From assembly GCF_000377785.1 (NCBI RefSeq), contig NZ_KB898729.1, positions 62,001-126,000 of the forward strand: a DNA stretch of 64,000 nucleotides, read 5' to 3'. Of this stretch, positions 13,712 to 29,711 are shown piece by piece; within the stretch, counting starts at the first letter, position 1; every line of letters starts with the position of its first letter. The DNA is from Thioalkalivibrio sp. ALJ24. Its GTDB lineage: Bacteria > Pseudomonadota > Gammaproteobacteria > Ectothiorhodospirales > Ectothiorhodospiraceae. Made by a program: the position numbers and the translations under genes. Below the pieces are notes generated by a model, which made no database searches, had not been told where the DNA came from, and saw only the letters and a list, made by a program, of their open reading frames with translations.

Positions 13712-13747
13712 CGGGGTAACGGGGAGAGCAACGGGGGCGGCGACGGA

Positions 13748-15721
13748 ATGCGCTTCTTCGAATACCAGGACCGGGCACGCCGGCGGCTGACGCTGCTGCT
13801 GGGGCTGTTCGTGCTGGTGGTGGTGCTGATGGTGGCACTGCTCAATCTCCTGCTGCTGTACACCCTGGTCGAACCTTGGCACGAGCTGCAGCAGCTCTTG
13901 CCCACGGCCGAGATGCTCGCGGAGCACCGTGTTTTCCTGTTCTGGACCACTGGCCTGGCGATGCTGGTCATCGCCGCGGCCAGCCTGTGGCGCCTGTATC
14001 AGCTGCGCCGCGCCGGCGGCGGGCGCGGCATCGCGCACGAGATGGGCGGCGATCCGGTGGACGCCGAGCCCGAGGATCCGAAGAACCGGCGGCTGCGCAA
14101 CATCGTCGAGGAGATGGCGATCGCCTCCGGGCTGCCGGTTCCGGCGATCTTCGTGCTGGAACGCGAGCTGGGCATCAACGCCTTCGCCGCCGGCTTCACC
14201 CCGCATGACGCGGCCATCGCGGTGACACGCGGGGCGATCGAGAGCCTCGACCGGCAGGAACTGAAAGCGGTGGTCGCGCACGAGTTCGGCCATATCCGGG
14301 CCGGCGACATGCGCCTGAATACCCAGCTGGTCGGCATCCTCTTTGGCATCGAGATGATCGCGCTGCTGGGCCTGGGCATGCTGCCCGGGCGCCGCGCACG
14401 CAACACCGAGGACCACAAACGTGGGCCGATCTGGTTCAACTTCGCGCTGGTGGCCGCCGGTGCGGTTGGCCTGCTCGGCGGGCGCCTGATCCGCGCGGCC
14501 ATTGCGCGCGAACAGGAGCACCGGGCGGACGCCCACGCGGTACAGTTCACCCGCAACGCGGATGGCATGGCCGGTGCACTGCGCAAGGTGGCCGCGCGCT
14601 ACGCCGGGCTCAACGCCAGCCCGGCGATGGTCGGACACATGCTGTTCGCCAACGGCGCCATCGATCAGCTGCTGGCCACCCATCCACCGCTGAAGCAACG
14701 CCTGGAGCGACTGGGACAGCCGCTCGACGAGGAGGCTCTGGAACGCCTGGGCCGCGAGACCACCGACCGTGTGCGACGTGCGGTGACCGACCGCGAGCGC
14801 CGGCGCCGCGAGCAGGAAGCCGCCGAACAGAAACGGGAGGAGGAGGAGCGCAACGGCCCCCTCGGCAACGCCTTCGCGGCGCTCCCCGGTGGCATGGCCG
14901 CCGCCCTGCTGGCCGCTCTGCCGGGCGAGCTGGCGCGGTCCGCCCGCAATCCCCACTGGGTCGCCGAACTGGCGCTCTACCTGATCCTGCACCCCGACCC
15001 CGAGGTGCGCGAGGATCAGCTGCTGATGATCCTGGAGACCCGCGGTGCCGACAGCGAACAGCGGGTACGCCAGCTCGGCGCGATGATCCCGGCGCCAGCA
15101 CCCGAGCACCGCCTGCCGCTGATCGAGATGGCCTTTCCCGCCCTTGCCCGGCTGGGGCGCGACGAGCAGCGGGCGCTGGCCGGGCTCGTCAATCGCCTGA
15201 TCCATGCCGACGGGCGCCTGTCACCCACCGAATATGCCCTGGGACGCATGCTGGTCGAACACCTCGACGGGCGCCATGCCCGCCGGAACGACAGGGCGCA
15301 GCGCCGCAAGGCCGCCCCCGCGGAGAAGGACGCACGCCACCGCGACAACGCGGCTCGCTATCTGCTGGCGACCCTCGCGCTGCACGGCCACCCGGATGAC
15401 CCGGAGGCGGCGGAGGCCGCACTGATCGCCGGCCTGGGCCGCTTCACCGGCAGCCTGCCGTTCAGCGCCCCCATCCCCGAGGAACTGCGTCAGGCCAGCC
15501 AGTCCGCGGCCTGGGCACGCATCCTCGACCGCGCGCTGGAGCGCCTCGCCCGAATGCCGCGCAATGACCGCGAGCGGCTGCTTCAGGCCATGGACGATAC
15601 CATTCAGCAGCGCGGCGACCCCACCGCGGAACAGCGCGAGCTGGTACGCATGATGGCCGCCTCGCTGCACCTGAACGTGCCGCTGCCGGATGCCGGCGAA
15701 CTGTTCGACGCCGGCCATTGA
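13748..15721 (+). CDS. Membrane M48 family metallopeptidase with C-terminal extension
   Basis: A 657-residue membrane protease related to HtpX, which degrades damaged membrane proteins. Two helices span about residues 15-40 and 60-85. The zinc motif HEFGH is at 178-182, and [20 protein letters not shown] supplies the third ligand. Two further hydrophobic segments lie near 195-255. The cytoplasmic remainder (about 350 residues) is helical and charged. Its [20 protein letters not shown] stretch resembles a TerB-like helical domain, which would be an uncommon fusion. The start at 13748 precedes the first membrane helix; the 22 codons before it are Gly/Pro-rich. A strong hairpin follows. Confidence 0.88.
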
Positions 15722-15768
15722 AGGATTTCGGGCCCCGCCGCTCCGCCGGGCATCCACCCCAACGAAAG

Positions 15769-15796
15769 AAGGCCCGCATCTCGCGATGCGGGCCTT
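15769..15796. terminator. Bidirectional hairpin terminator
   Basis: A perfect 12-bp stem (AAGGCCCGCATC with its complement) closes a TCGC loop between the convergent M48 peptidase and porin genes. Short A- and T-rich flanks are present on both sides but no long U-tract, so termination in both directions is likely though not certain. Confidence 0.75.
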
Positions 15797-15837
15797 CCCG
15801 TTACAGCCGCTGGCTGAGACTCGCGCAGTGCGCGAGA

Positions 15838-16932
15838 TCAGAAGCTGTAGTGCATGCCGACCATGAAGACGTTGTTGGATCCCGTGGGGTCTTCATCATC
15901 ATCCACCGGTCCAAAGCCGACAGGATCACCGCCGGTATCACGCGCACGCTCCACCGGGATGGCGCCCGTGCCCTCTTCCTCGTAGTAGTACTCGGCGAAG
16001 AACATCAGGGCGTCGTTGAAGTGGAAGTCGTAGCCCAGGTGGAATACGTCCTCACCGTAGTTGTCGACGTTGGCCACCATGCCCTTGAAGGTGTGCTGAC
16101 CCCAGTCATAGGCGGCGTAGACATTCGCGGCGATGTCACCATCTTCGCCGTAGCCGTCATCGATGTCGGAATCGTAGTACTCGACCTTCGCGGACAGCGA
16201 CAGGTCGCCCATGGTGTGCATCGCGGAAAAGCCGTACAGACGCTCGTTATTATCACCGCGAATGTCGTCGATACCGATCGCGAAGGTGGTGTCCTCGATC
16301 GTGTAGGACCCGGTCAGCTGGTAGCGGTCGTCATCGCTACCGAGACAATTCCCATCATCATCAAATGCATCATCGCACGCTCCCGAATTCGCGCTGTAGG
16401 CGGCGCCAAAGGAAAAGCCGTTGAAGTCGGGGGAGTAGTAGAACAGGGTGTCGCTTTCGCGGAACGTGGTGTAGGTCGCGAAGCCCGACTGGAAGGAGCT
16501 GAACATGTCGACCGGGAACGCGATCGCGTTGTAGTACGGCATCCAGTCACGGCCATAGGCGAAGGTGCCGGCCACATCGGATTCGAGACCGATCTTGGCG
16601 ATGCGGATGTCCTCACCATCATCGTTGGAACGATCACCCGCAAAGGGATCCTGCACACGGCCATTGGCCAGGTCCAGCGGCATCTCGAGCTGGGCAAAAG
16701 CACCCAGGCCGTCGTTCAGGGGCATGTCGGCGGTAAAGCCCACCCGCGAGTAGGCGTCACGGAAGCCATCGTAGCTGCTTTCGCCTTCCGGATCGGCGGC
16801 TTCGTACTGGATCCGCAGGGAGCCGTAGAAATCCCAGTCGATCGGGCCGGCGCCTTCTTCCTGGGCCATCGCCATGCCGGGGGCGGCCAGGGTCGCGGCG
16901 ACTGCCGCGGCAAGCATCTTCCTGTTCATCAT
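15838..16932 (-). CDS. Gram-negative porin
   Basis: 364 residues including a signal peptide (MMNRKMLAAAVAATLAAPGMAMA, cleaved after AMA). The mature chain shows alternating beta-strand patterns and ends in HYSF, the C-terminal phenylalanine of outer-membrane barrels. Opening segments (DWDFYGSLRIQYE, SRVGFTADMPL, FAQLEMPLDL) are of the general trimeric porin family. The mature protein is very acidic with Asp-rich loops, as in halophile outer-membrane proteins. Substrate cannot be predicted. A second ATG at 16929 is equally possible. It is expressed from a strong-looking promoter about 140 bases upstream. Confidence 0.9.
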   Translation of the reverse strand: MMNRKMLAAAVAATLAAPGMAMAQEEGAGPIDWDFYGSLRIQYEAADPEGESSYDGFRDAYSRVGFTADMPLNDGLGAFAQLEMPLDLANGRVQDPFAGDRSNDDGEDIRIAKIGLESDVAGTFAYGRDWMPYYNAIAFPVDMFSSFQSGFATYTTFRESDTLFYYSPDFNGFSFGAAYSANSGACDDAFDDDGNCLGSDDDRYQLTGSYTIEDTTFAIGIDDIRGDNNERLYGFSAMHTMGDLSLSAKVEYYDSDIDDGYGEDGDIAANVYAAYDWGQHTFKGMVANVDNYGEDVFHLGYDFHFNDALMFFAEYYYEEEGTGAIPVERARDTGGDPVGFGPVDDDEDPTGSNNVFMVGMHYSF

Positions 16933-17068
16933 CTGTCTGTCCTCGCGCTGTCTTCGGGAAACTCGTCAGGGGCCGGGACCGACGGGGCCGCCCGGCAGGT
17001 GTGCGCCATCTGCAACTGCTGCGCGCGGAACATCGCGGACGATCGATTCCACTGCACACCAGAGTGCT

Positions 17069-17097
17069 TATATAAACGAAGACTAATTCGTTGTAAA
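17069..17097 (-). promoter_or_regulatory. Sigma-70 promoter of the porin gene
   Basis: On the minus strand TTTACA (17092-17097) and TATATA (17069-17074) are 17 bases apart, a near-consensus arrangement. Transcription would start near 17062, leaving a leader of about 130 bases before the porin ATG. The surrounding AT-rich patch stands out from the GC-rich background. The rest of the 361-base gap (16933-17293) holds only this promoter and the marR palindrome; I see no gene in it. Confidence 0.7.
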
Positions 17098-17244
17098 GGG
17101 CCCACACACATGTGCAGATTCTGTGTATTCCACGCGACACACAGGGGTACTCGCCGCCCGGGGACCGGCACCGGCAACGGGTAGCGCGAACGCACGGCGA
17201 CATGGTGCGGTCACAGCCCTGAAACCTTCGGATTGCGCCAGGAA

Positions 17245-17262
17245 TATTTTTGCGCAAAAATA
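17245..17262. promoter_or_regulatory. Perfect 18-bp palindrome, probable MarR operator
   Basis: TATTTTTGCGCAAAAATA is a perfect inverted repeat centred 40 bases before the marR start. MarR dimers bind palindromes of 16-20 bp, often overlapping their own promoter, so an autoregulatory operator is the simplest reading. Direct evidence is limited to symmetry and position. Confidence 0.6.
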
Positions 17263-17293
17263 ATGCCTCGATTCAGCCACCATCGGAAAACGC

Positions 17294-17809
17294 ATGTCGT
17301 CCCCCAGCGCCACCCGGAAACAATCTGAAGCCCCGACCGGTGGTGAAGAACCCTCCCGCTCGGTGATCCGCCAGCTGCGGGTGATCATTCGCGCGCTGCA
17401 GGGCCACTCTCGTTCGGTGGAACGGGCCTGCGGGATCAGCGCGTCCCAGCTGTGGGCGCTGTGGGAACTGCAGCGTACGCCCGGCCTGAACGTGAGCGAC
17501 CTGTCCCGGCGGCTGTCGGTGCATGCCTCCACCACCTCCAACCTGCTGGACAAGCTGGAGCAGCAGGGGCTGATCGAGCGCCGCCGTCCGGAGCGCGACC
17601 AGCGCATCGTGCGCCTGTACGTGACTGCGGCCGGCCAGGAACTGCTGGAACGCGCCCCGGCGGCCCCCCAGGGCGAGCTCAATCGGGCGCTGGAGGCGAT
17701 GCCCCCCGAGGAACTGGCCGAACTCGACCACAACCTGGCCCTGCTGGTGGAAACCATGCAGTCCACCGAGCAGCGCGCCGGTCTCAAGCCCTTCGAGGGC
17801 GGGGCCTGA
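17294..17809 (+). CDS. MarR family transcriptional regulator
   Basis: A 171-residue winged-helix repressor. The core (RQLRVIIRALQGHSRSVERACG ... LSVHASTTSNLLDKLEQQGLIERRRPERDQRIVRLYVTAAGQ, split here by the middle helices) is a complete MarR DNA-binding domain with the wing RRPERDQR. The N-terminal 20 residues are disordered and polar. It is followed after five bases by a membrane-anchored protein gene and lies at the head of the plus-strand operon of hydrolases and a symporter. The ligand is unknown. The palindrome at 17245-17262 is the likely binding site. Confidence 0.9.
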   Translation: MSSPSATRKQSEAPTGGEEPSRSVIRQLRVIIRALQGHSRSVERACGISASQLWALWELQRTPGLNVSDLSRRLSVHASTTSNLLDKLEQQGLIERRRPERDQRIVRLYVTAAGQELLERAPAAPQGELNRALEAMPPEELAELDHNLALLVETMQSTEQRAGLKPFEGGA

Positions 17810-17814
17810 GCGGC

Positions 17815-18243
17815 ATGCTCCGGCTCGCCGTCCACCCCGTCCGCTTCCTGCTGCTGGTACTGGCGCTCGTCCTGCTGGCCGGCCCGGCCCTGGCCGAGCC
17901 CCGCTTTGACGATCCGCCCGAGCACTCCGCCGATGGCGGCTTCACCCTGCACTGGGAAGCCCCCGGGGCGGTGGTGCTGGAGCGTGCCAGCGGCCCCGAC
18001 TTCGACGATGCCCGCGTCATCTACGAGGGCGGCGACGCCAGCCGCGTGATCAGCGGCCTGCCGGACGGCGAATATCGTTTCCGTCTGCGCGCCGCCGACG
18101 CCGACGAGGATGCCTGGAGCGACCGCATCACGGTCGAGGTCGAGCATCACAGCCTCGCGCGCGCCTTCGGTTTCTTCGCCGTCGGCGCCGCCGTGTTCCT
18201 GGTGCTGATCTTCGCGCTGCTGCGGGGCCGCCCGCGCGGCTGA
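17815..18243 (+). CDS. Exported, membrane-anchored fibronectin-III-like protein
   Basis: 142 residues, no named family recognised. A signal peptide (FLLLVLALVLLAGPALA, about residues 11-27) is followed by a single beta domain of about 85 residues, with FTLHWEAPGAVVLERASGPDF and SGLPDGEYRFRLRAADADEDAWS. The W-x-APG and the GEYRFRLRA strand resemble a fibronectin type III repeat. A C-terminal helix (FGFFAVGAAVFLVLIFALL) and an arginine-rich tail anchor it in the inner membrane, facing the periplasm. It is five bases after marR and 44 bases before the M20 hydrolase, so it probably belongs to the same transcript. Confidence 0.75.
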   Translation: MLRLAVHPVRFLLLVLALVLLAGPALAEPRFDDPPEHSADGGFTLHWEAPGAVVLERASGPDFDDARVIYEGGDASRVISGLPDGEYRFRLRAADADEDAWSDRITVEVEHHSLARAFGFFAVGAAVFLVLIFALLRGRPRG

Positions 18244-18287
18244 CTCCCATTCCCCGGGCCTGCGTGCCCGGCCAACCGGAGACCCTC

Positions 18288-19529
18288 ATGCACGATTTCA
18301 CCATCAACATGCCGCGCCTGCAGCAGGACATTAACGACCTCGCGCAGATCGGCCGCGATGCCGACCGCGGCCTGCACCGCCGCGCGTTCTCCGACGGTGA
18401 CCGGGCCGGGCGCGAGTGGTTCCGCCACCGCCTGGAGGCGGCCGGACTGGATGTCTGGCAGGACGGGGCGGCCAACCTGCACGGCCGCCTGCAGTACGAC
18501 GGCCGGCGGCCGGTGGTGGCGATGGGCTCGCATCTCGATACGGTGCCCGGCGGCGGCCCGCTGGACGGCGCGCTGGGCGTGCTGATCGGACTCGAGGTCC
18601 TGCGCACCACGCAGGAACAGGGCATCGAGCTGCAGTATCCGCTGGAGGTGATCGACTTCACCGACGAGGAAGGACGCTTCGGCGGGATGTTCGGCTCCCA
18701 GGCGATGGCCGGCAAACTGACCCCGGAAAGCATCAGCCATGCGCGCGACCTGGAGGGCGTGACGCTGGTGGATGCGATGGCGGCCTGGGGCCTGAACGCG
18801 GATGACGCACTGGTCGCCCGGCGCGACCCGAACACCCTGCACGCCTTTATCGAGACCCACATCGAACAGGGGCCGGTACTGGACCGGCGCGGCCTGAGCG
18901 TGGGGGTGGTGGAGGCCATCACCGGGCTGTTCAAGTGGGAGGTGCGGCTGAAGGGCCAGCCCAACCACGCGGGTACCACGCCGATGGACATGCGCGCCGA
19001 CGCGTTCCAGGGCCTGGCGGAGTTCGGCGGCGAGATCGACCGCCTGCTGGAGGAACACGGCAGCCCCAACTCGCGCGCGACCATCGGCCGCGTGGAGCTG
19101 TCGCCGGGGGCGCCGAACACCGTGCCCGGAACGGCGACCTTTTCGTTCGAGGTGCGCGACACCGACGAGAAGGTGCTGACCGCACTGGCGCACGCGGCGC
19201 GGCGCACGCTCTCCAGCCTGGCCCGGCGGCGCGACCTGATGTTCGAGTTCGACGTGCTCTCGGAGATCGATCCGGTGCGCTGCGACACCGGCATCGTGCA
19301 GACCATCGAGGGCCAGGCCGAACGCATGGGGCTGGAATACATCACCATGCCCAGCGGCGCGGCGCACGACACCCAGAGCATGAGTGCGATCACCCGCACC
19401 GGGATGATCTTCGTGCCCAGCCTGCAGGGGCGTTCCCATTCGGCCGCGGAATGGACAAACTGGGAGGACATCGAGACCGGCGCCAACCTGGCCCTGCACA
19501 GTGCGCTGGCACTGGCGGCCCCGCAGTAG
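18288..19529 (+). CDS. M20 family amidohydrolase, N-carbamoyl-L-amino-acid hydrolase / allantoate amidohydrolase type
   Basis: A 413-residue cytoplasmic dinuclear metal amidase. Metal ligands are visible: SHLDTVPGGGPLDG (His, bridging Asp), DEEGRFGG (Glu), ETHIEQGP (His) and RSHSAAEW (His). This motif set is that of the hydantoinase/carbamoylase branch, which hydrolyses N-carbamoyl amino acids, ureidopropionate or allantoate. The lid domain carries QPNHAGTTPMDMR. The ATG at 18288 has a CGGAGA ribosome binding site. The next gene encodes another C-N hydrolase, and a carbamoyltransferase homologue lies in the same operon. That favours an N-carbamoyl substrate, although allantoate cannot be excluded. 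Confidence 0.88.
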   Translation: MHDFTINMPRLQQDINDLAQIGRDADRGLHRRAFSDGDRAGREWFRHRLEAAGLDVWQDGAANLHGRLQYDGRRPVVAMGSHLDTVPGGGPLDGALGVLIGLEVLRTTQEQGIELQYPLEVIDFTDEEGRFGGMFGSQAMAGKLTPESISHARDLEGVTLVDAMAAWGLNADDALVARRDPNTLHAFIETHIEQGPVLDRRGLSVGVVEAITGLFKWEVRLKGQPNHAGTTPMDMRADAFQGLAEFGGEIDRLLEEHGSPNSRATIGRVELSPGAPNTVPGTATFSFEVRDTDEKVLTALAHAARRTLSSLARRRDLMFEFDVLSEIDPVRCDTGIVQTIEGQAERMGLEYITMPSGAAHDTQSMSAITRTGMIFVPSLQGRSHSAAEWTNWEDIETGANLALHSALALAAPQ

Positions 19530-19560
19530 CGCCACCCCAACCGATCGAGGAGCCCGCGGC

Positions 19561-20301
19561 ATGGCCGACGACAACGTTTCCCGCCTGACCGACTACGACT
19601 CCCTGGACCCGCTGCGCGAGCAGTACCAGGAGAGCCTGATCAGCAAGCCGGTGCTGCGCCGCGAACTGCGCGAGCACCATGTCGCCCTGCTGTGCATCGA
19701 CCTGCAGTACCTCGACGCCGCGCGCGGCCACGGGGTGTTCGCGGATTCGGCCGAATCCGGCATCCCGGTGGAGGCCCAGGAATACTATTTTCACCGCCTG
19801 GAGGAGACCGTCCTGCCGAACGTGCGCCGGCTGCAGGATGCCTTCCGCGACCAGGAGATGGAGGTCATCCACACCCGCATCCGGTCACTGACCCGCGACG
19901 GGCGCGACCGCAGCCCCGGGCACAAGCGCCTGGGGCTGCACGCGGGCCCGGGCAGCAAGGACGCCGAGTTCGTTGAACAGGTCGCGCCGCAGGGCGACGA
20001 GATCGTCCTCGACAAGACCGCGAGCGGCGTGTTCAACTCGACCAATCTGCATTACATCCTGCGGAACCTGGAGATTTCCGCCCTGTTCATCGTTGGCGTG
20101 TACAGCAACGAATGCGTCTCCACCGCGGTGCGTGACGCCTGTGACCTGGGCTTCTACGTGACGCTCATCGAGGACTGCTGTGCGACGGTGACCCCCGAGA
20201 TGCAACGCGCCACCATCACCACCATCAAGGACCGTTACGCCCGCGTGATGACCACGGACGAGGCGATCCAGGAGATCACGAAGGTGCGGGAGGCGTCGTG
20301 A
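19561..20301 (+). CDS. Isochorismatase-fold cysteine amidohydrolase
   Basis: A 246-residue enzyme of the cysteine-hydrolase superfamily that includes nicotinamidase, biuret hydrolase and ureidoacrylate hydrolase RutB. The triad is complete: Asp in LLCIDLQYLD, Lys in VLDKTASGVF and the nucleophilic Cys in YSNECVSTAVRDACDLGF. The N-terminal 40 residues are an extra helical segment. The likely job is hydrolysis of an amide or carbamoyl bond. Its last bases (GTGA) contain the start of the symporter gene, so hydrolysis and transport are coupled in expression. The exact substrate is unknown. Confidence 0.87.
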   Translation: MADDNVSRLTDYDSLDPLREQYQESLISKPVLRRELREHHVALLCIDLQYLDAARGHGVFADSAESGIPVEAQEYYFHRLEETVLPNVRRLQDAFRDQEMEVIHTRIRSLTRDGRDRSPGHKRLGLHAGPGSKDAEFVEQVAPQGDEIVLDKTASGVFNSTNLHYILRNLEISALFIVGVYSNECVSTAVRDACDLGFYVTLIEDCCATVTPEMQRATITTIKDRYARVMTTDEAIQEITKVREAS

Positions 20302-21782
20302 CCGCCCTCGAGGAGCCCATCCTCCCGACCTCCGTCGCCTGGGGGCTGCTCGCGGCCTTCAGCATTCTGTGGGTCGCGCTGGGCGCCTGGCTGGGACGCC
20401 GCAACTACACCGCCGCCGACCACATGCTGGCCGGGCGCAACGTGGGGCTGGCCCTGGCCAGCGCCACCGCGATGGCCACCTGGGTCACCGCCAACACCAC
20501 CATGACCGCCCCGCAGCTCGCGCTGGAACTGGGCGTGTGGGGCATGCTGGGCTACTCGCTGGGCGCGCTGGGCCTGATCCTGTTCGCCCCGCTGGCGCGG
20601 CGCATCCGCGAGCTGATGCCGCACGGCTTTACCTCCGGGGATTTCATCCGCCTGCGCTACGGGACCTTCACCTGGCGGGTGTTCCTCGGTGTATCCCTGA
20701 TCTACGCCTTCGGCTGGCTGATCTCCATGGCGATGGCCGGCGGGGTGCTGATCAACGCCCTGGCCGGGATCGACTACCGCGTGGGCATGACCGTGATCCT
20801 GACGGTGTGCGTGATCTACACCCTGCTGGGCGGGCTGCGCGCGGTGATCGGCACCGACTTCATCCAGACGGTGATCATCATCGGCGGCGCCGCTTTCCTC
20901 GCCTGGATGACCATCGACCGGGTGGGCTTCGAGGCGATCCATTTCGATCTGATGGAAGAGCGTCCGGAACTGCTGAGCCTGCTGTTCCCGGCGGCGATCA
21001 TGTTCCTGTTCAACAACCTGCTGTTCGGGGTGGGCGAGATCTTCCACTCCAACGTGTGGTGGTCGCGCGCCTTCGCCTTCGGCCGTAACGTGGGCTTCCG
21101 CGCCTACCTGCTGGGCGGGCTGCTGTGGCTGCCGATCCCGATCGTGGCCGGCTTCGTGGCGCTGGCCACCCCGGCGCTGGGCATCAACGTGCCGGCGGCG
21201 GACATGGTCGGCCCGCTGGTGGCCGCCGAGGTGCTCGGCCTGACCGGGGCGATCGTGGTCTTCATCGTGGTGTTCGCCGCGCTGGCGTCCAGCCTCGACT
21301 CGCTGCTCGCCGCCACTTCGGACCTGGTCACCCGCGACATCTACCGCGGGCACATCCATCCGCAGGCCTCGCAGGAGGCGCAGCTGCGGGCGACCAAGGT
21401 GATCGTGGTGCTGCTGGGGCTGCTGACCTGGCTGGCCGCCAGCTATCGCGGCGAGGTGCCGGTGGTCGGTTCGCTCGCGGCCCTGCTGTATTTCACCGGC
21501 GCCTTCGTGGCCAGCGCGATCTGGCCCATCGTGGCCGGACTGTACTGGCGCCGCGCCAACCCGCAGGCGGCCGCCTGGGCGATGCTGCTGGGCTCCGGGC
21601 TGGGTCTGGCCAGCTACTTCATGATCGGCTGGTACGTGGCCGCCCTGGTAGGCGCGGCGGTCTCGCTGGTGGTGATGGTCGCCGGCACCTGGCTGTTCCC
21701 GCGGCCGTTCGACTGGGACCGGCTGGCGCGCGATGACCACGACGCGCCCGCCGGCCGCGACACCCCGGAGGTGGCGACATGA
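20298..21782 (+). CDS. Sodium:solute symporter (SSS family)
   Basis: A 494-residue membrane protein with about 13 helices, related to proline, pantothenate and urea-type Na+ symporters. Family marks are the N-terminal RRNYTAADHMLAGRNVGL loop, ATAMATWVTANT in the first core helix, GFTSGDFIRLRYG and the helix AALASSLDSLLAATSDLVTRDIYR, which carries the Na+-site Ser/Thr residues. It starts at GTG 20298, overlapping the amidase stop by four bases. The 40-codon ORF after it overlaps by four bases too. The substrate is probably the compound acted on by the neighbouring hydrolases. Confidence 0.9.
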   Translation: MTALEEPILPTSVAWGLLAAFSILWVALGAWLGRRNYTAADHMLAGRNVGLALASATAMATWVTANTTMTAPQLALELGVWGMLGYSLGALGLILFAPLARRIRELMPHGFTSGDFIRLRYGTFTWRVFLGVSLIYAFGWLISMAMAGGVLINALAGIDYRVGMTVILTVCVIYTLLGGLRAVIGTDFIQTVIIIGGAAFLAWMTIDRVGFEAIHFDLMEERPELLSLLFPAAIMFLFNNLLFGVGEIFHSNVWWSRAFAFGRNVGFRAYLLGGLLWLPIPIVAGFVALATPALGINVPAADMVGPLVAAEVLGLTGAIVVFIVVFAALASSLDSLLAATSDLVTRDIYRGHIHPQASQEAQLRATKVIVVLLGLLTWLAASYRGEVPVVGSLAALLYFTGAFVASAIWPIVAGLYWRRANPQAAAWAMLLGSGLGLASYFMIGWYVAALVGAAVSLVVMVAGTWLFPRPFDWDRLARDDHDAPAGRDTPEVAT

Positions 21783-21901
21783 CGATCCCGGTAACCGCAC
21801 TGGCGACCATCGTGATCATCGCGACCACGGTCGCGACCCTGACCCCGATCCTGCTGATCGCCCTGTTCATCCGTGACTGGAAGAGAGGATGCCTCTGGTG
21901 A
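21779..21901 (+). CDS. 40-residue single-helix membrane protein, probable symporter accessory subunit
   Basis: The sequence opens MTIPVTALATIVIIATTVA, continues as one hydrophobic helix to about residue 31, and ends RDWKRGCLW. Its ATG overlaps the symporter stop (ATGA). Its own TGA overlaps the GTG of the carbamoyltransferase-like gene (GTGA). Small one-helix partners encoded directly after SSS transporters are known in other bacteria, so an accessory subunit is the best guess. The double overlap argues strongly that it is translated. Confidence 0.75.
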   Translation: MTIPVTALATIVIIATTVATLTPILLIALFIRDWKRGCLW

Positions 21902-22968
21902 ATCCCGATGACCCGCTGAACACCCTCAAGCCGCGGGACGGTGCCGCCGGCACCGATCGCCCGCGCGCCCTGCTGGAGGCGGTGGAGGAAAACCCCGACC
22001 CGCTGCTCAAGCTGGCCGCCTCGCACGTGGTCTCCAGCCGGCAGTTCACACGCGAGGAGCTGCTGCAGCTGTTCCGCCTGGCGGCGCAGTACGAGACCAC
22101 GCCGGCGCTGGTGCATCTGCCGCTGGCCGGCAAGATCCTGATCAGTGCGTTCTACGAGCCGTCCACCCGCACGCGGCTGTCGTTCGAGAGCGCCTGGCAC
22201 CGGCTCGGGGGATCGGTAATGTCGATCACCGATCCGAAGAGCACCGGCATCGCCAAGGGCGAATCGCTGGCCGACATCGCGGAGATGTTCAACAACTACG
22301 GCGACGTGCTGGTGCTGCGTTCCTCGGACGGCGAGGCCGTGCACGACATGCTCGAGAACCTGCGCATCCCGCTGGTCAACGCCGGCAACGGGATCGACGA
22401 GCACCCGACCCAGGCGCTGGCGGATGTGTACACCCTGGCCAAGTGGCGCCCGGAGGTGTTCCTGCCCGACTGCCCGCCGGAAAAGCACATCAAGCTGGGG
22501 GTCGTCGGCGTGCCTTCGCGCATGCGCACGGTGCGCAGCCTGCTGAGCATGCTGAGCCTGTTCCCCGAGGCGATCGACGAGATCGTGGTGATCTCGCGCG
22601 AGGAGGAGAACTTCGACCCCGAGCAGCGCGAGCTGCTGGAGGGCGCGGGCCTGAAGCTGCGCGTGGTGAACGACCTGGACCCGGTGCTGCCGGAGCTGGA
22701 CGTCGTCTACATCAACGCCATCGCCTGGGTCGGCGACACCTTCGAGTCCATGGGCGAGGGCCTGAACCTGAACCGCGAGTCGCCGCTGAAGGAGGGTGCC
22801 GTCATCATGCATCCGCTGGCGCGCGGCGCGGAGCTGTCGACCGATCTCGACGACACCCCGCACAACTGGTACTTCGCCCAGGCGCGCGGGGCGGTGTTCG
22901 TGCGCATGGCCCTGCTGACCACGGTGGTGCGCCGGATCAGCGCGGTGATGGACACCCCGGAGGGCTGA
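21898..22968 (+). CDS. Divergent aspartate/ornithine carbamoyltransferase homologue
   Basis: 356 residues. Carbamoyl-phosphate-binding features are intact: STRTR (89-93), the 80s-loop Lys (TGIAKGES, K120), HPTQAL (169-174) and RTVRSL near 210. The HPLPR motif reads HPLAR (305-309). The aspartate-binding MTR-x-QKER loop of PyrB is replaced by INAIAWVGDTFESMGEG, so aspartate is probably not the substrate. I choose the GTG at 21898: AGAGG lies 9 bases before it but abuts the ATG at 21889. It overlaps the small membrane protein gene by four bases and precedes an AsnB-type gene. It is likely a transcarbamylase for another amino acid. Confidence 0.85.
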   Translation: MNPDDPLNTLKPRDGAAGTDRPRALLEAVEENPDPLLKLAASHVVSSRQFTREELLQLFRLAAQYETTPALVHLPLAGKILISAFYEPSTRTRLSFESAWHRLGGSVMSITDPKSTGIAKGESLADIAEMFNNYGDVLVLRSSDGEAVHDMLENLRIPLVNAGNGIDEHPTQALADVYTLAKWRPEVFLPDCPPEKHIKLGVVGVPSRMRTVRSLLSMLSLFPEAIDEIVVISREEENFDPEQRELLEGAGLKLRVVNDLDPVLPELDVVYINAIAWVGDTFESMGEGLNLNRESPLKEGAVIMHPLARGAELSTDLDDTPHNWYFAQARGAVFVRMALLTTVVRRISAVMDTPEG

Positions 22969-23059
22969 CCCCCCGATTGTATGATTGCCTGACTGACCGC
23001 GAGCGGCGCGGCGACCCGGCCCCGCTCGCCCCCGATGGATAACTCAAGGAGACACCCCC

Positions 23060-25081
23060 ATGTGCGGCATTGGCGGCATCTTTCACGCCGACCCGGAACG
23101 TCCGGTCGATGCACAGACCCTAGTCAACATGGCCGCGATCCAGTACCACCGCGGCCCCGACGGCTTTGGCTACAAGATCCAGGATGATCGCGGCGTGGGC
23201 TTCAGTCACGCGCGGCTGTCGATCATCGACCTCGACGAGAACCGCGGGCGCCAGCCGTTCACCATGAGCAACGGCGAGATCATGACCGCGGTCAACGGCG
23301 AGCTGTACGACTACAAGCGCATCCGCACCGATCTGACCTCGCGCGGGGTGAAGTTCCGCACCAAGAGCGATTCCGAGATGGTGATGCACCTTTACCAGCG
23401 CGAGGGGCTGGAGGATGCGCTGAAGTACTTCCGCGGCGAGTTCGCGATCTCGCTGTACGACCGCAAGCACGACCGCCTGGTGCTGGCACGCGACCGCTTC
23501 GGCATCAAGCCGCTGTACTTCACCGAGACCGCCGGCGGCAGCTTCGTGTTCGGCTCCGAACTGAAGGTCCTGTTCGCCAACCCCGACGTGCAGCGGCGCT
23601 TCTCCGACGACGGCCTGTACCACCAGCTGATGCAGACCATGGTGCCGGGCACCACCGCCTTCGAGGGCATCCACCAGGTCAAGCCCGGCCACGTGGTCAT
23701 CGTCGAGCGCGCCCACGGCAAGCTGAAGATCCGCCAGGAGAAATACTGGGACATGGACTTCCCGCTGGCCTCGGAGCGCCCGCCGGAAAGCGAGACCGAC
23801 GAGGAGTACTGGATCGAGGGGGTGCGCGACAAGCTGATGGAGGCCACCCAGCTGCGCCTGGAGGCCGACGTGCCGGTCGCCTGCTACCTCTCCGGGGGGA
23901 TCGACTCCTGCATCACCCTGGGCCTGGCCTCGGCCAGCCAGCAGGCGCCGGTGAAGGCCTTCACCATCGGCTTCGACAACGACGACTACGACGAGACCGC
24001 CATCGCCCGCGAGATGGCCGAGAGCGTGGGCGCCGACCAGGACATCATGTCGCTGGACGCCGACCACCTGTACGACAACTTCGAGGAGGCGCTCTGGCAC
24101 GCCGAGCGCACCATCTACAACACCCTGGCGGTGGCCAAGCTGCTGATGAGCCGGCACGTGAACCGCGCCGGCTACAAGGTGGTGGTGACCGGCGAGGGCT
24201 CGGACGAGCTGTTCGGCGGCTACCCGGCGTTTCGCCGCGACATGTTCATGCACGGGCTGGACACCCTGCCGGAGGCCGACCGTGCCGCCTGGCAGCAGAT
24301 GCTCAACGAGTCCAACGAACTGGTCTCCGGGGCGATGCTGGCCGAGGACGAGGTCTCCGACCCCGACTTCAACCGCATGATGGGCTTCACCCCGTCCTGC
24401 CTGCAGCCCTGGCTGGCGGCCGCCGAGCACGTACCCGGCCTGCTGCATCCGAAGCGGCGCAAGCGCATGAAGGACTACAAGCCGGGCAAGGCCATCGCCG
24501 ACGCCCTGGACGACGACATGCTGGAAGGGCGGCATCCACTGGACAAGGCCCAGTACGTGTGGATCAAGACCATGCTGGAGGGCCAGATCCTGACCTGGGG
24601 CGGCGACCGCATGGACATGGCCAACTCCATGGAGGCGCGCCCGCCGTTCCTCGACCACCACCTGGCCGAGTTCGCCGCGCATCTGCCGCCGACCATGCGC
24701 ATCAAGGGCCGCAACGAAAAGTACGTGCTGCGCGAGTCGATGAAGGGCCTGCTGCCCAAGGTGCTGTACGAGCGCGAGAAATTCCCGTTCATGGCGCCAC
24801 CGGCCCACACCGACCCGACCAAATGGGCGGCGATGAAGGCCCTGGCGGATCGCTACCTGTCGGAGGACAAGGTCGCCGAGGCCGGGCTGCTGGACCCCGA
24901 GGGGGTGCGTCAGGTGTTCGAGATCCACGAGTCGGAAGAGACCCCGGCGGCGACCCAGGTGCAGCTGGACGCGGTGATCAACCACATGATCGGGGTACAG
25001 GTGCTGCACGAGCAGTTCGTGGCCACCGACATCCCCGCGCTGGCGGCGCAGAAGGCCCGCGAATTCGGCTGGAGCGCCTGA
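23060..25081 (+). CDS. AsnB-type glutamine-dependent amidotransferase
   Basis: 673 residues, longer than E. coli AsnB (554). The class II glutaminase domain begins with the catalytic Cys2 (MCGIGGIF), followed by YHRGPDGFG and VNGELYDY. The synthetase domain has the ATP pyrophosphatase loop YLSGGIDS, GEGSDELFGGYPAF and EARPPFLDHHLAEFAA. The ATG at 23060 has an AAGGAGA site. Such enzymes make asparagine, but relatives amidate other carboxylates, for example in N-acetylglutaminylglutamine amide synthesis. The operon next to a transcarbamylase and amidases suggests a role other than asparagine supply. A 91-base gap separates it from the upstream gene. Confidence 0.9.
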   Translation: MCGIGGIFHADPERPVDAQTLVNMAAIQYHRGPDGFGYKIQDDRGVGFSHARLSIIDLDENRGRQPFTMSNGEIMTAVNGELYDYKRIRTDLTSRGVKFRTKSDSEMVMHLYQREGLEDALKYFRGEFAISLYDRKHDRLVLARDRFGIKPLYFTETAGGSFVFGSELKVLFANPDVQRRFSDDGLYHQLMQTMVPGTTAFEGIHQVKPGHVVIVERAHGKLKIRQEKYWDMDFPLASERPPESETDEEYWIEGVRDKLMEATQLRLEADVPVACYLSGGIDSCITLGLASASQQAPVKAFTIGFDNDDYDETAIAREMAESVGADQDIMSLDADHLYDNFEEALWHAERTIYNTLAVAKLLMSRHVNRAGYKVVVTGEGSDELFGGYPAFRRDMFMHGLDTLPEADRAAWQQMLNESNELVSGAMLAEDEVSDPDFNRMMGFTPSCLQPWLAAAEHVPGLLHPKRRKRMKDYKPGKAIADALDDDMLEGRHPLDKAQYVWIKTMLEGQILTWGGDRMDMANSMEARPPFLDHHLAEFAAHLPPTMRIKGRNEKYVLRESMKGLLPKVLYEREKFPFMAPPAHTDPTKWAAMKALADRYLSEDKVAEAGLLDPEGVRQVFEIHESEETPAATQVQLDAVINHMIGVQVLHEQFVATDIPALAAQKAREFGWSA

Positions 25082-25118
25082 ACTCACCAGGAGGCCGGGA
25101 AGGCCCCGAAGGAACACC

Positions 25119-27272
25119 GTGACCGAAGACACCGGGGATACCCATGCCCTGCGCCTGCAGGCGATCGCGGACACCACTCAGGAGGTGTTTGTCCTGCTCG
25201 ACAGCAACGGGCGGATCGAGTACGTCAACGCCGCGCTGAAGCGTGTACTGGGTTATGAGCCCCGGACCCTGCTGGGACTGCCGCTGCACGAAACGTTCGC
25301 ACCGGCGGAACACATGGACGCGATCCGCGCGGGTTACGAGGATTTTCGACATACCGGCACCGGTCCCGTGGTGGGACGGGTGCATGAACTGGAGGCGGTG
25401 CACGCGGACGGCTATCGGGTACCCGTGGAGCTGTCGGTCTCGGCCTTGTGGCTGGACGGGGAGTGGCATGCGGTCGGCGTCATGCGCGACATTTCGGCGC
25501 GGCGGCGCGTGGAACAGGCCCTGCGTACCGAGCGCGAACGCAACGATGCCCGCGCGCGTCTGGAAGCCACCGTCTTCAATGCCACCAGCGACGGCGTCCT
25601 CATTACCGACGGGGACGAGCGCATCGAGGCCGTCAACCGGGCGTTTGCCGAGATCACCGGATATCCGGAGGATGAAGTCCTCGGCCGGACCCCGAGCTTC
25701 CTGAAGTCCGGGCGGCAGGATGCAGCCTTCTACCGCGAAATGCGGGAGGAGCTGGAAACGGTCGGCGAGTGGAACGGGGAACTCGTCAACCGCCGCCGTG
25801 ACGGCAGTGTCTACCCCCAGTGGACCCGCATCAACGCCGTTCGGGACCCGCAGGGCCGGGTCCGCCACTATGTCGCGGTCTTCTCCGACCTCACCGATCT
25901 GCGCGCCTCGCAGGAACGCATCGAGCGCCTGGTCCACCGCGACCCGGTCACTGACCTGCCCAACCGCCTGCTGTTTCGCACCCGCCTGGAACAGGTGCTG
26001 GCGGCGCAGGGCCGACGGGGCGACGGGGCGGCCGTACTGCACCTGGGGCTGGACGGCTTCAAGCACGTCAACGAGAGCCTCGGTCACCGGTTCGGCGACC
26101 GGCTGCTGCGGGCCATGGGCGAACGACTGAACTCAATGATCCGCCCCACGGAGACCCTGGCGCGGCTGGGCGGGGACGAATTCGCGATCATGGTAGATGG
26201 AGAGGAACGCGCGATGCTGCTGGCCGAGGCCCTGCTGCGCCAGGTCGCGCAGACCCTTGAGCTGGACGGCGAAACCCTGTTCCTGACCACCAGCGTGGGC
26301 ATCGCCTGCAGCCCGCGGGATGGCCACGATGTCGAATCGCTGATGCGCAATGCCGCCGCGGCCGTGCACGAAGCCAAGGCCGCCGGCGGCAACGCCTGGC
26401 GGGGCTATTCCCGCGAACAGACCACTCTCGCAACCGATCGCGTGCGGCTGACCGGGCGGCTGCGCGAGGCGCTCGACGCCGATGAGCTGGTCCTCCACTA
26501 CCAGCCACAGGTCAGCCTCGCTGACGGCCGGATCATCGGAGTGGAGGCCCTGGTCCGCTGGCAGCATCCGGAATCCGGCCCGATCTCGCCGGATCGCTTC
26601 ATTACGGTGGCCGAACAGAGCGGGCTGATCGCCGCGCTCGGCGAACAGGTCCTGCAGAAGGCCTGCCGTCAGGCACGGGAGTGGCGGGACAATGGCGTGG
26701 GCTTTGGCCACGTGGCGGTCAACATCTCCCCCGCACAGATCCGCCGCAGCACCGTCGCCGCCCAGGTGTCCGGGGCACTGGAAAAAAGCGGCCTGCCCCC
26801 GCACTGCCTGCAGGCGGAGATCACCGAAAGCATCGCCATGGACCGCCGCGGCGAGGCCCCAGGATTCCTGCAGGCCATGCAGGAGCTGGGCGTACGCCTG
26901 GCGATGGACGATTTCGGCACCGGTTACTCGTCGCTGGCGTATCTGCGCGACCTGCCCTTCGACACGCTCAAGTTGGATCGCATTTTCGTGAAATCGCTGC
27001 CCAATTCGTCATCGGACGCCGCCATCGCCGAGGCCATCTGCACCCTCGGTCGCCGCCTGGGACTGGAGGTTCTGGCCGAGGGCGTGGAAACCCCGGCGCA
27101 GGCCGACACCCTGCGCGGCTTCGGCTGCACCTCGGCCCAGGGCTTCCTGTTCTCCCGGCCGGTCCCGGCCGAACAGCTGCCCGCCACCCTTCAGCGCCTC
27201 ACGGATCAACTGCCCGCCGGTCCGTCTCGTGGTCAGTCTTCGTCTGCCACCTCGGGCTCGGTACGCGAATAG
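25119..27272 (+). CDS. PAS-PAS-GGDEF-EAL cyclic-di-GMP enzyme
   Basis: 717 residues. Two PAS domains (about 7-125 and 145-260) precede a GGDEF domain (RLGGDEFAI, with HLGLDGFKHVNE) and an EAL domain. The EAL part keeps VEALVRWQHP, VNISPAQ, EITES, MDDFGTGYSS, KLDR and AEGVET, so phosphodiesterase activity is likely. The GGDEF motif is also intact, so cyclase activity cannot be excluded. It starts at GTG 25119 with GAAGGA upstream. No transmembrane segment is visible, so it should be cytoplasmic. It lies 37 bases after the AsnB-type gene and overlaps the convergent gene by 40 bases at the 3' end. Confidence 0.92.
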   Translation: MTEDTGDTHALRLQAIADTTQEVFVLLDSNGRIEYVNAALKRVLGYEPRTLLGLPLHETFAPAEHMDAIRAGYEDFRHTGTGPVVGRVHELEAVHADGYRVPVELSVSALWLDGEWHAVGVMRDISARRRVEQALRTERERNDARARLEATVFNATSDGVLITDGDERIEAVNRAFAEITGYPEDEVLGRTPSFLKSGRQDAAFYREMREELETVGEWNGELVNRRRDGSVYPQWTRINAVRDPQGRVRHYVAVFSDLTDLRASQERIERLVHRDPVTDLPNRLLFRTRLEQVLAAQGRRGDGAAVLHLGLDGFKHVNESLGHRFGDRLLRAMGERLNSMIRPTETLARLGGDEFAIMVDGEERAMLLAEALLRQVAQTLELDGETLFLTTSVGIACSPRDGHDVESLMRNAAAAVHEAKAAGGNAWRGYSREQTTLATDRVRLTGRLREALDADELVLHYQPQVSLADGRIIGVEALVRWQHPESGPISPDRFITVAEQSGLIAALGEQVLQKACRQAREWRDNGVGFGHVAVNISPAQIRRSTVAAQVSGALEKSGLPPHCLQAEITESIAMDRRGEAPGFLQAMQELGVRLAMDDFGTGYSSLAYLRDLPFDTLKLDRIFVKSLPNSSSDAAIAEAICTLGRRLGLEVLAEGVETPAQADTLRGFGCTSAQGFLFSRPVPAEQLPATLQRLTDQLPAGPSRGQSSSATSGSVRE

Positions 27273-28825
27273 ACGTACGCCACGCCACTCAGGCGGCGAT
27301 TCAGCTCCTGGAAGCCATCGAGCACCTCCCAGGCCGGATAGGGCAGACCGGCCTGGGCGCGCTTCGCCCGGATCAGCCAGCGGCTGTTCTCCTGCTTGCG
27401 CTCGAGGATCTTGCGGCCCAGCTCGGGACGTTCGCGCATCAGCATCCGCGCCACGGTGTTCATCTGCTGGGAGAGCCGGTTGGCGGCCTCCTCGAGCAGC
27501 GGATGCGCGGAGGCCACCGCCTCGGGGTGGTCGCGCACCAGGCGTTCGACATCGTGGTAGAGACCGGGCCCCAGCGTGCGCACGATCACCGGAAGCTCGC
27601 GCATCAGATCGTCCAGCGTCTCCTTGAGGATCTGATCCTCCTCGTCCAGCGCATCGTCGGGGATCGCATCCAGGAACTCCACCAGCTCGTCGCGGGCCTG
27701 CAGCACGTGCCAGCGGCGTTCGTCCATCTCCCGTCGCAGGACCGGCGGCGCATCGCCCTCGGAAAGGGCGTGCATCGCCCGGTCGCGGAGCAGATGCAGC
27801 TGGTCGAAGACCTTGAGCGTTTCGCGCAATACGGCATTGATCGCCAGCGCCGGATTCTGCTGCAGGAGCGGATCGAGGCTGGTGGGCGCGGAGGGCTCGG
27901 CGGCCACCGGATCGGGAACCAGCGAACGGACCATATGCCCCAGCACCGCTGCGAAGAGGATCGCACCGCTGGCCACCAGATTGAACAGCGTATGGCCCCA
28001 GGCCGCCTGCTGCGGGAGCGTACCGGGGAGGATCTCCGGTGATTCCAGCGGGAGATGCAGCAGCACGGCGGCCAGAACGACCACCAGCGGCCCTTTGACC
28101 AGCAGGCTGGCCAGCCCCAGACGGCGCCCCTGAAGATCCCCCCACCCGGCGATCAGTACCGTGAGGACCAGACCGATGTTCGCCCCCAGGACCCACAGTA
28201 GCAGCATGGTGAGATCCACCTGGCCGGTGGCCACCAGTGCCAGGGCAAGCGCGATCGAAGCGGTCGCGCTCTGCATCAGCAGGGTGAGCAATGCGGCCCC
28301 GATCAGGAACAGCAGCGGTAGTTCACCCAGCGCGGCGAACAGATTGACCACGGCCGGATCACTGCCAAGCGTGCGCGCGGCATCGCCCAGCAGCCCCATC
28401 CCCAGCAGCATGAAACCGAAGGCCAGCAGGGCCTGCCCGATCCCGCGCGGGCGCGGCGCCTCCACGTAGAGGAACAGGATCGCGCCCGCGGCCACGAACA
28501 GGCCGGCAAACGCCTGCAGGTCGAAGGACAGCACCTGGATCAGCGCGGTCGTACCCAGCTGCGCCCCCAGCAGGACCGCGAGCACGTTCTCCCAGGCGAC
28601 GTTCCCGCGCCGGGTCATCTGCACCGACAGCAGCGCCGCGGCCGTCGACGACGGCATCACGACCCCGCCAGCGATACCACCGATCCATGCCCGCGGACGG
28701 GTGCGCGTGAACCCCTGCAGCCAGTCGATCAGGTCGCCGCCCATCACGCGTGCGAACCCCTTGCGCAGAAAGCGCAGGCCGAACAGGATCAGCAGGACGC
28801 CGGCGACGAGATTGATGGTTTCCAT
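27233..28825 (-). CDS. Na/Pi cotransporter II-related protein with PhoU-like domain
   Basis: 530 residues. The N-terminal half has about nine helices with the paired NptA repeats: GVVMPSSTAAALLSV and LLMQSATASIALALAL carry the QSSS-like motif in degenerate form (MPSST, QSATAS). The cytoplasmic C-terminal half is helical and PhoU-like. The family imports phosphate with sodium, although the altered motif leaves the substrate open. The ATG at 28825 has a GAGG site; a TTG one codon upstream is less likely. Its last 40 bases overlap the end of the convergent GGDEF-EAL gene. Confidence 0.85.
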   Translation of the reverse strand: METINLVAGVLLILFGLRFLRKGFARVMGGDLIDWLQGFTRTRPRAWIGGIAGGVVMPSSTAAALLSVQMTRRGNVAWENVLAVLLGAQLGTTALIQVLSFDLQAFAGLFVAAGAILFLYVEAPRPRGIGQALLAFGFMLLGMGLLGDAARTLGSDPAVVNLFAALGELPLLFLIGAALLTLLMQSATASIALALALVATGQVDLTMLLLWVLGANIGLVLTVLIAGWGDLQGRRLGLASLLVKGPLVVVLAAVLLHLPLESPEILPGTLPQQAAWGHTLFNLVASGAILFAAVLGHMVRSLVPDPVAAEPSAPTSLDPLLQQNPALAINAVLRETLKVFDQLHLLRDRAMHALSEGDAPPVLRREMDERRWHVLQARDELVEFLDAIPDDALDEEDQILKETLDDLMRELPVIVRTLGPGLYHDVERLVRDHPEAVASAHPLLEEAANRLSQQMNTVARMLMRERPELGRKILERKQENSRWLIRAKRAQAGLPYPAWEVLDGFQELNRRLSGVAYVYSRTEPEVADED

Positions 28826-28903
28826 CAAGGCACCTCGGGATGGTTGGCTCCCGGTTCAAGGGTATCGGGGCCTTGCCGGTGGCGCAGGGCGGGCCAAAAG
28901 GAA

Positions 28904-28941
28904 ACGGGCCGTTTCCGCGTACGACTCGGAAGACGGCCCGC
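28904..28941 (-). terminator. Terminator after the TorF-like gene
   Basis: On the minus strand a 13-bp stem (CGGGCCGT plus TTCCG with their complements, one bulged base, 9-base loop) is followed by a TTTCCTTTT tract. It lies 25 bases after the stop codon at 28967. The left arm also forms a smaller perfect inverted repeat at 28900-28916. Confidence 0.65.
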
Positions 28942-28966
28942 CAGCGGATACCCTGTTGGCCGGGTG

Positions 28967-29694: not shown

Positions 29695-29711
29695 GCCGGG
29701 TTATTGCCGGA

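Follow-up and report, generated by a model that had tools for sequence, protein, structure and literature searches.

Results

A unit of eight genes in Thioalkalivibrio sp. ALJ24

We analyzed positions 62001-126000 of contig NZ_KB898729.1 (C6; L, G and C followed by a number are our labels for loci, genomes and contigs) from the genome of Thioalkalivibrio sp. ALJ24 (RefSeq assembly GCF_000377785.1, G000; 2.81 Mb, 20 contigs). This stretch of 64,000 nucleotides, the window, contains a unit of eight genes, all on the + strand, which in salt-loving bacteria most likely serves the synthesis, and in many species also the uptake and breakdown, of N-carbamoyl-glutamine amide (CGA). A preliminary description had placed six genes at 18288-25081, with GTGA/ATGA overlaps or short gaps at four of the junctions, and all six are found there on the + strand; the unit extends further upstream, where a MarR gene (17294-17809) and an FN3-like gene (17815-18243) had been missed. 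The gene order is MarR, FN3-like protein, M20 amidohydrolase, isochorismatase-fold protein, SSF symporter, 40-aa protein, transcarbamylase and AsnB-type amidotransferase, with spacings from MarR onward of 5, 44, 31, -4, -4, -13 and 91 bp. The three overlaps lie between the isochorismatase-fold and symporter genes (GTGA), the symporter and 40-aa genes (ATGA), and the 40-aa and transcarbamylase genes (13 bp). Promoter and terminator scans gave no match. The features are as follows.

17245..17262, no strand: 18-bp perfect palindrome TATTTTTGCGCAAAAATA, likely MarR operator (palindrome scan, genome-wide site count)
17294..17809, + strand: MarR-family regulator, first gene of the unit (Pfam MarR, E 6e-17)
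17815..18243, + strand: 142-aa FN3-like protein (AlphaFold and Foldseek)
18288..19529, + strand: M20 amidohydrolase, proposed N-carbamoyl-L-amino-acid hydrolase (NF006771, TIGR01879; best solved relative 3n5f)
19561..20301, + strand: isochorismatase-fold cysteine hydrolase, proposed 1-amide amidase (Pfam Isochorismatase)
20298..21782, + strand: sodium:solute symporter (SSF), proposed solute uptake (Pfam SSF)
21779..21901, + strand: 40-aa one-helix protein, proposed small symporter partner (aligned in 15 loci)
21889..22968, + strand: transcarbamylase, proposed glutamine N-carbamoyltransferase (invariant motifs, own clade)
23060..25081, + strand: AsnB-type class II glutamine amidotransferase/synthetase, proposed alpha-carboxylate amidation (TIGR01536)

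A transcarbamylase distinct from PyrB and ArgF

The genome encodes three proteins with an OTCace_N domain: ArgF, which adjoins ArgD, PyrB, and the unit transcarbamylase, whose nearest named relative is found in Thioalkalivibrio halophilus HL17 (97%, L054). All 17 NCBIfam matches of the unit protein fall below their cut-offs, the best being TIGR00670 (asp_carb_tr; 193 bits versus 237). A profile built from 15 unit transcarbamylases finds aspartate transcarbamylases (ATCases) as best matches in the PDB, and the AlphaFold model (predicted local distance difference test score, pLDDT, 84) has ATCase 1ml4 as best Foldseek match (E 1e-25).

We compared the active-site motifs with those of ATCases. 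EPSTRTR, EHPTQA, MRTVRS, YINxIxWxG and HPLARG are invariant in 38/38 aligned unit transcarbamylases; the carbamoyl-phosphate site (STRTR and HPxQ in ATCases) is thus kept as EPSTRTR and EHPTQA. Opposite the ATCase loop YxTRIQ, the unit proteins read YIN-A/S-IA: Arg-229 is replaced by Ala or Ser and Gln-231 by Ala, followed by a Trp. In E. coli ATCase numbering, we take Arg-229 and Gln-231 to be the ligands of the aspartate side chain. An RxQ motif occurs anywhere in only 1/38 unit transcarbamylases, outside the side-chain loop (regular-expression search), versus LR[LI]QxER in 9/9 extracted PyrB sequences. The RTVRSL motif that holds Arg-167 is retained. According to PMC6056424 (papers are cited by PubMed Central identifier, throughout from excerpts of their text), Arg-167 contacts the bisubstrate analogue N-phosphonacetyl-L-aspartate (PALA), with Arg-229 turned into the active site. 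The loss of Arg-229 and Gln-231, together with retention of Arg-167 and the carbamoyl-phosphate motifs, points to a substrate that has an alpha-carboxylate but no side-chain carboxylate.

A tree of 12 of the 38 aligned sequences with nine PyrB, 10 ArgF and one other protein places the unit transcarbamylases in one clade apart from PyrB and ArgF (support 95/93) on a long stem; the exact sister of this clade is not fixed, as the program warns of long branches meeting. By its sequence, the protein differs from the housekeeping aspartate and ornithine transcarbamylases. The transcarbamylase homologue of the preliminary description is thus the third of its genome, neither PyrB nor ArgF, and has lost the presumed aspartate side-chain ligands. 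A plasmid search for it returned no match of at least 60% identity (best 37%).

The AsnB-type amidotransferase and its linkage to the transcarbamylase

The AsnB-type protein carries the Cys-2 nucleophile and the SGGIDS loop, both invariant in 12 chosen sequences, in keeping with its earlier assignment as an AsnB-type amidotransferase. It scores below the cut-offs of the models for the N-acetylglutaminylglutamine amide (NAGGN) enzyme (TIGR03104; 302 versus 570 bits) and the XrtA-associated enzyme (379 versus 817), which are represented by separate proteins in the same genome (907 and 1075 bits, respectively). The NAGGN-type amidotransferase is encoded at 260132-261904 of contig C3 (L178), and the genome may thus hold two systems for amide-capped glutamine solutes. 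A tree of 25 proteins groups the 12 sequences with the orthologue from Thiorhodospira sibirica in a clade (support 100/100) with a long stem, apart from the NAGGN enzymes. Pfam detects no GNAT protein among the unit neighbors of the AsnB-type gene, and so no acetyltransferase/ligase of the Ngg type lies beside it.

Linkage was assessed in loci from other genomes. A scan of named genomes confirmed 209 relatives of the transcarbamylase, and the locus counts use the best 80 of these; in 78/80 the sequence continues for 400 bp or more past the transcarbamylase, and 65 have full flanks. In 77/78, the transcarbamylase is followed by an AsnB-type gene in the same orientation, so the gene order is no coincidence. 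The two genes are no more than 240 bp apart in 71 loci; in the seven where the hydrolase genes lie between them, the distance is 2.0-2.7 kb (this list takes in one locus with less than 400 bp downstream). The sole exception is T. sibirica, whose AsnB-type orthologue (1274 bits) is encoded ~700 kb away on the same contig (C4). There (L080, L164), the transcarbamylase and 40-aa genes are split from the AsnB-type gene, the only such pair among the loci compared. In both trees, T. sibirica sits near E. marismortui and Thioalkalivibrio, and L093, L104, L120 and L131 branch outside all other members, a pattern that fits joint descent of the two genes. Across genomes sampled evenly from the class, the AsnB-type gene adjoins the transcarbamylase in all 21 examinable of 23 carriers (in G079 the contig ends, and the neighborhood of G356 lies outside the comparison).

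Two hydrolases inherited as a pair

The M20 protein passes the NCBIfam models for hydantoinase/carbamoylase (TIGR01879; 365 bits versus 204) and allantoate amidohydrolase (NF006771; 528 versus 399). Its second-best NCBIfam match, at 391 bits and below the cut-off of 520, is NF058540, the model of the N-carbamyl-L-glutamate amidohydrolase ErtE, which works in ergothioneine breakdown. Among solved structures, a profile search ranks N-carbamoyl-L-amino acid hydrolase 3n5f (377 bits) above allantoate amidohydrolase 1z2l (298), and the protein had indeed been described as a carbamoylase-type M20 enzyme. The metal-ligand and carboxylate-binding residues His-82, Asp-93, Glu-128, His-191, His-384 and Arg-290 are invariant in 16 chosen sequences. 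In a related M20 enzyme, the substrate carboxylate is held by Arg-291 (PMC10952681), with which we equate Arg-290 by the shared RD motif. As this arginine is invariant, the M20 enzyme probably needs a free carboxylate and would hence act after amide removal.

The isochorismatase-fold protein (Pfam Isochorismatase, 124 bits), also named as such in the preliminary description, has cysteine hydrolase 6xix as its best solved relative (E 7e-20), and Asp-47, Lys-152 and Cys-185 are invariant in 12 chosen sequences. A search of the genome for allantoinase found none over cut-off (other ureide genes were not searched); the best match to the allantoinase model (169 bits versus 358) adjoins PyrB, and we read it as dihydroorotase. 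Of the 65 fully flanked loci, 41 have both hydrolases and 24 have neither; no locus has just one of them. A gene counts as absent here if no orthologue passes the thresholds.

A symporter with two small membrane proteins

The symporter (Pfam SSF, 108 bits) matches no NCBIfam model over cut-off. It is present in 56/65 loci with full flanks; of these 65, only that of T. sibirica has neither symporter nor hydrolases. The 142-aa protein consists of an N-terminal hydrophobic segment, an FN3-like domain and a C-terminal transmembrane helix (AlphaFold pLDDT 92). Its best Foldseek matches are FN3 domains (best E 1.8e-4), and it matches no Pfam family over cut-off; a PKD-domain model matches 2/15 members of the FN3-like set (best E 8.5e-4). 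The 40-aa protein has no NCBIfam match over cut-off, and its conservation indicates a real gene: Pro-23, Asp-33, Leu-39 and Trp-40 are invariant in 15 chosen loci, the helix ending in LW. The FN3-like gene occurs in 51/56 loci with the symporter and 0/9 loci without it. The 40-aa gene, easily missed at its size, is found in 38/56 symporter loci and in one locus without a symporter (T. sibirica). Given this pattern, the FN3-like protein and the 40-aa helix may be subunits of a three-part SSF transporter, for which we propose inward transport of the solute on the basis of gene linkage.

A MarR operator candidate and PII genes

The palindrome TATTTTTGCGCAAAAATA ends 31 bp upstream of marR, and its inner 16 bases, ATTTTTGNNCAAAAAT, occur nowhere else in the 2.8-Mb genome, even with one mismatch allowed. 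Eight of 18 Thioalkalivibrio-named marR loci have the full 18-bp palindrome, seven of these with a GTAC center; six others have a shorter or altered palindrome, and four have none among the two best palindromes listed. The palindrome was found in 0/7 Ectothiorhodospira loci. It is likely the operator of MarR. The position of MarR matches in Thioalkalivibrio and Ectothiorhodospira loci; in L092, L122, L169 and L175 the MarR gene follows the AsnB-type gene. The NAGGN operon of Pseudomonas aeruginosa is repressed by a protein of the MarR type (PMC8070244). The unit MarR gave no match at E 1e-4 to five stretches around NAGGN genes, and the parallel between the two systems would be one of logic only.

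Seven loci (L089, L091, L110, L111, L113, L130 and L133) have a spirochaete-type order of symporter, transcarbamylase, M20, isochorismatase-fold and AsnB-type genes. In 7/7, a PII gene lies just upstream in the same direction (Pfam P-II, 102 bits in L110), preceding the FN3-like or the symporter gene. Across 114 loci searched, no PII gene was found beyond these seven.

Distribution among mostly saline taxa

With the unit transcarbamylase as query, 46 of 116 related genomes give a match at E 1e-60: 24/30 in the same genus, 17/17 in other genera of the family and 5/69 elsewhere in the class. The six genomes of the genus without a match are 58-80% complete. Even samples gave 23/369 genomes and 19/271 genera for the class, and 2/398 genomes, one of them that of strain ALJ24, for the phylum. 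Genus names are attached to 54 of the best 80 loci: 20 Thioalkalivibrio, 10 Idiomarina, seven Ectothiorhodospira, four Kangiella, three Aliidiomarina, two each of Pleionea and Pseudoalteromonas, and one each of Thiorhodospira, Thiohalobacter, Thiohalophilus, Aliikangiella, Ketobacter and Candidatus Tenderia. The other 26 are metagenome-assembled genomes named above genus level, among them Leptospiraceae. We take the named carrier genera to be mostly marine, halophilic or haloalkaliphilic. The co-occurrence check suggested in the preliminary description thus turned out in its favor, with the AsnB-type gene accompanying the transcarbamylase, the hydrolases paired, and carriers in taxa taken to be mostly saline.

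BCCT transporters, an indirect stand-in for salt exposure, are encoded by 16/23 carriers versus 62/346 non-carriers in the class sample (odds ratio 10.5, P 3e-7). Counting by genus (12/19 versus 48/252; odds ratio 7.3, P 7e-5) or without the family of strain ALJ24 (12/19 versus 62/346; odds ratio 7.9, P 3e-5) removes kinship only partly.

The unit in the species from which CGA was reported

A 2005 review lists CGA, reported from Ectothiorhodospira marismortui, among compatible solutes (PMC1224877), and a 2020 survey of phototroph genomes names it again (PMC7824335), in both excerpts without genes. In the open-access literature, searches for CGA and for transcarbamylases in connection with osmolytes gave no paper that assigns genes to it, as the preliminary description had supposed. 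One of our loci, L073 (NZ_FOUO01000006.1), comes from DSM 4180, there named E. mobilis. DSM 4180 is given as the type strain of E. marismortui in PMC7824335 and PMC8877833, the latter with accession FOUO00000000. L073 contains MarR, the M20 and isochorismatase-fold hydrolases, the transcarbamylase and the AsnB-type protein. The DSM 4180 genome encodes exactly three transcarbamylases: ArgF, PyrB and the unit-type protein. As ArgF and PyrB are taken, the unit-type protein would be the sole free candidate if CGA arises from carbamoyl phosphate through this family. CGA was presumably isolated from strain DSM 4180 itself, and E. marismortui is the one known producer among species with the unit.

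PMC7824335 records no annotated osmotic-stress genes for T. sibirica and no synthesis of betaine or ectoine for E. magna. T. sibirica has both synthesis genes of the unit, and E. magna (L079) has the whole enzyme set.

Flanking genes

A PAS-PAS-GGDEF-EAL gene (25119-27272) starts 37 bp past the AsnB-type gene. We rejected it as a member of the unit, since among the loci compared a full-length counterpart is in place only in the nearest relative, T. halophilus (L054, 83%). Further flanking genes outside the unit (13520-31166) encode an M48 peptidase (13682-15721), a porin (15838-16932, - strand), a Na/Pi cotransporter (27233-28828, - strand), a Gcw_chp protein (28967-29626, - strand) and MgtE (29712-31097, - strand).

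Discussion

From the observed gene content and order, co-inheritance, active-site residues, distribution and uniqueness of the palindrome, we infer the substrates, products, step order, transport cargo and inducing signal as follows. The transcarbamylase would place the carbamoyl group of carbamoyl phosphate on the alpha-amino group of L-glutamine, yielding N-carbamoylglutamine. The AsnB-type enzyme would then activate the free alpha-carboxylate with ATP and amidate it with ammonia from a second glutamine, giving CGA. Under falling salt, the isochorismatase-fold enzyme may take off the 1-amide first, and the M20 enzyme would release the carbamoyl group as CO2 and NH3, so that glutamine is regained. 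In most carriers, the Na+ symporter and its two small membrane proteins would import CGA, and MarR may bind the palindrome ahead of its own gene to repress the unit.

Several lines of evidence count for a unit that makes and recycles CGA. The unit pairs two enzymes that add groups with two that remove them, and transcarbamylase and AsnB-type protein stay together in descent even in T. sibirica, where their genes are split. The type strain of E. marismortui carries the unit, and T. sibirica and E. magna have its synthesis genes, yet by PMC7824335 lack those for making betaine and ectoine. Among solved structures, an L-carbamoylase is nearest to the M20 enzyme, and the genome has no allantoinase over cut-off. 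The enrichment of BCCT transporters, the unique MarR palindrome and the PII genes of the spirochaete-type loci add to this. Together, the separate transcarbamylase clade, the linkage in 77/78 loci and the presence of the unit in E. marismortui leave the CGA osmolyte first suggested in the preliminary description as the best explanation. That the product is some N-carbamoyl amino-acid amide appears highly probable from these sequence comparisons; that the unit makes CGA in particular, and recycles it by deamidation and decarbamoylation, we regard as rather probable.

Other observations weigh against CGA. Glutamine as substrate rests on one known solute, and asparagine or another neutral amino acid would also fit the residues. 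The two hydrolases are missing in 24/65 loci, and a distant M20 protein (42-47% identity) is encoded near the cluster, on either strand, in 10/80 (for example, L109:13103-14320, L120:6607-7809 and L131:6566-7789, in loci without the two hydrolases). E. marismortui L073 has no symporter within 10 kb of the cluster. The transcarbamylase frame of the Ectothiorhodospira-group genome G044, a single contig, is split into two overlapping pieces (L049:9651-10681), which may reflect decay or a sequencing error. The AsnB-type protein scores over the cut-off of the asparagine synthase model TIGR01536 (422 bits versus 267), and among the genome paralogues scanned, none is a PRK09431-type asparagine synthase B over cut-off. 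The excerpted texts of two Thioalkalivibrio papers (PMC9062515, PMC8092127) do not contain the word "carbamoyl". In PMC9062515, glycine betaine is the main solute of T. versutus D301, sucrose is cited from earlier work, and the excerpt on the salt transcriptome, with 184 salt-responsive genes, is silent on the unit genes. The carriers also include Idiomarina, Kangiella and Pseudoalteromonas, for which we know of no report of CGA.

The same chemistry could act on asparagine or another neutral amino acid, with the N-carbamoyl amide serving as an osmolyte or nitrogen store. The loop residues argue only against ATCase-like binding of a side-chain carboxylate, and the carriers are far more diverse than the single CGA species of PMC1224877. 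Since the only such solute named in the excerpts of the cited papers is a glutamine derivative, and comes from a species that bears the cluster, we consider this variant unlikely, if worth keeping in view. Salvage or catabolism of ureides would fit an M20 enzyme that passes the allantoate amidohydrolase model and an isochorismatase fold nearest to biuret-type cysteine hydrolases: the symporter would import an N-carbamoyl compound, the hydrolases would degrade it, and the transcarbamylase would run in reverse to yield carbamoyl phosphate. Such a route has no role for an ATP-using amidotransferase, however, and the loci without hydrolases keep both transcarbamylase and AsnB-type genes. The lack of an allantoinase over cut-off in this genome, the absence of an adjoining symporter gene in E. 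marismortui and the mostly saline carriers also speak against it, and we judge it improbable.

That the AsnB-type gene encodes an asparagine synthetase or a glutathione-amide synthetase, with unrelated neighbors, is suggested by its TIGR01536 score and by PMC8877833, whose authors infer glutathione amide in the majority of Ectothiorhodospiraceae. The exceptions named there, E. mobilis and E. marismortui, in which no glutathione reductase was found, retain the gene; its linkage to the transcarbamylase in 77/78 loci and the long-stemmed clade of its products make this explanation quite improbable. Finally, the ATCase fold and the best, if insufficient, NCBIfam match to asp_carb_tr would suit a second ATCase in a unit for pyrimidine or arginine metabolism. 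With scores below every NCBIfam cut-off, the side-chain loop lost in 38/38 sequences while PyrB keeps it in 9/9, and PyrB and ArgF encoded elsewhere in this genome and in E. marismortui, we find a second ATCase very improbable.

The closest known parallel to the proposed CGA unit is the MarR-regulated NAGGN operon of P. aeruginosa (asnO-ngg-peptidase, PA3458-PA3461; PMC8070244). Both would yield a neutral, glutamine-derived solute by blocking the N terminus and amidating the C terminus with an AsnB-like enzyme, and both have an adjoining hydrolase gene and a MarR-type repressor. In the NAGGN system, the block consists of acetylation and a peptide bond, whereas the CGA unit would use the carbamoyl group transferred by the transcarbamylase, and its amidotransferase belongs to a separate clade below the TIGR03104 cut-off. 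The transcarbamylase in turn shares its fold, the carbamoyl-phosphate motifs and the Arg-167-type motif with PyrB; it differs in lacking equivalents of Arg-229 and Gln-231, in the loop Trp, in forming its own clade and in lying outside the pyrimidine operon. The M20 protein resembles L-carbamoylase 3n5f, its best solved relative, over the full length, and keeps the metal ligands and the carboxylate-binding arginine, but its gene adjoins the proposed makers of its substrate rather than a hydantoin pathway.

More broadly, and only tentatively, CGA or a close N-carbamoyl amino-acid amide could be a widespread, overlooked nitrogen-rich solute of marine and haloalkaliphilic Gammaproteobacteria and of spirochaetes, made by two enzymes and imported by a three-part Na+ symporter (SSF, FN3-like protein and 40-aa helix); the link of this solute to nitrogen status would run through PII in the spirochaete-type loci and through a single-site MarR repressor in Thioalkalivibrio. 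The unit offers a concrete gene set for CGA, found also in the type strain of the species of discovery, and predicts the solute in many marine genera. If this assignment is correct, CGA would be the second amide-capped glutamine osmolyte beside NAGGN, transcarbamylases would gain a new substrate class, and genes now called aspartate carbamoyltransferase, asparagine synthase and allantoate amidohydrolase would have to be renamed.

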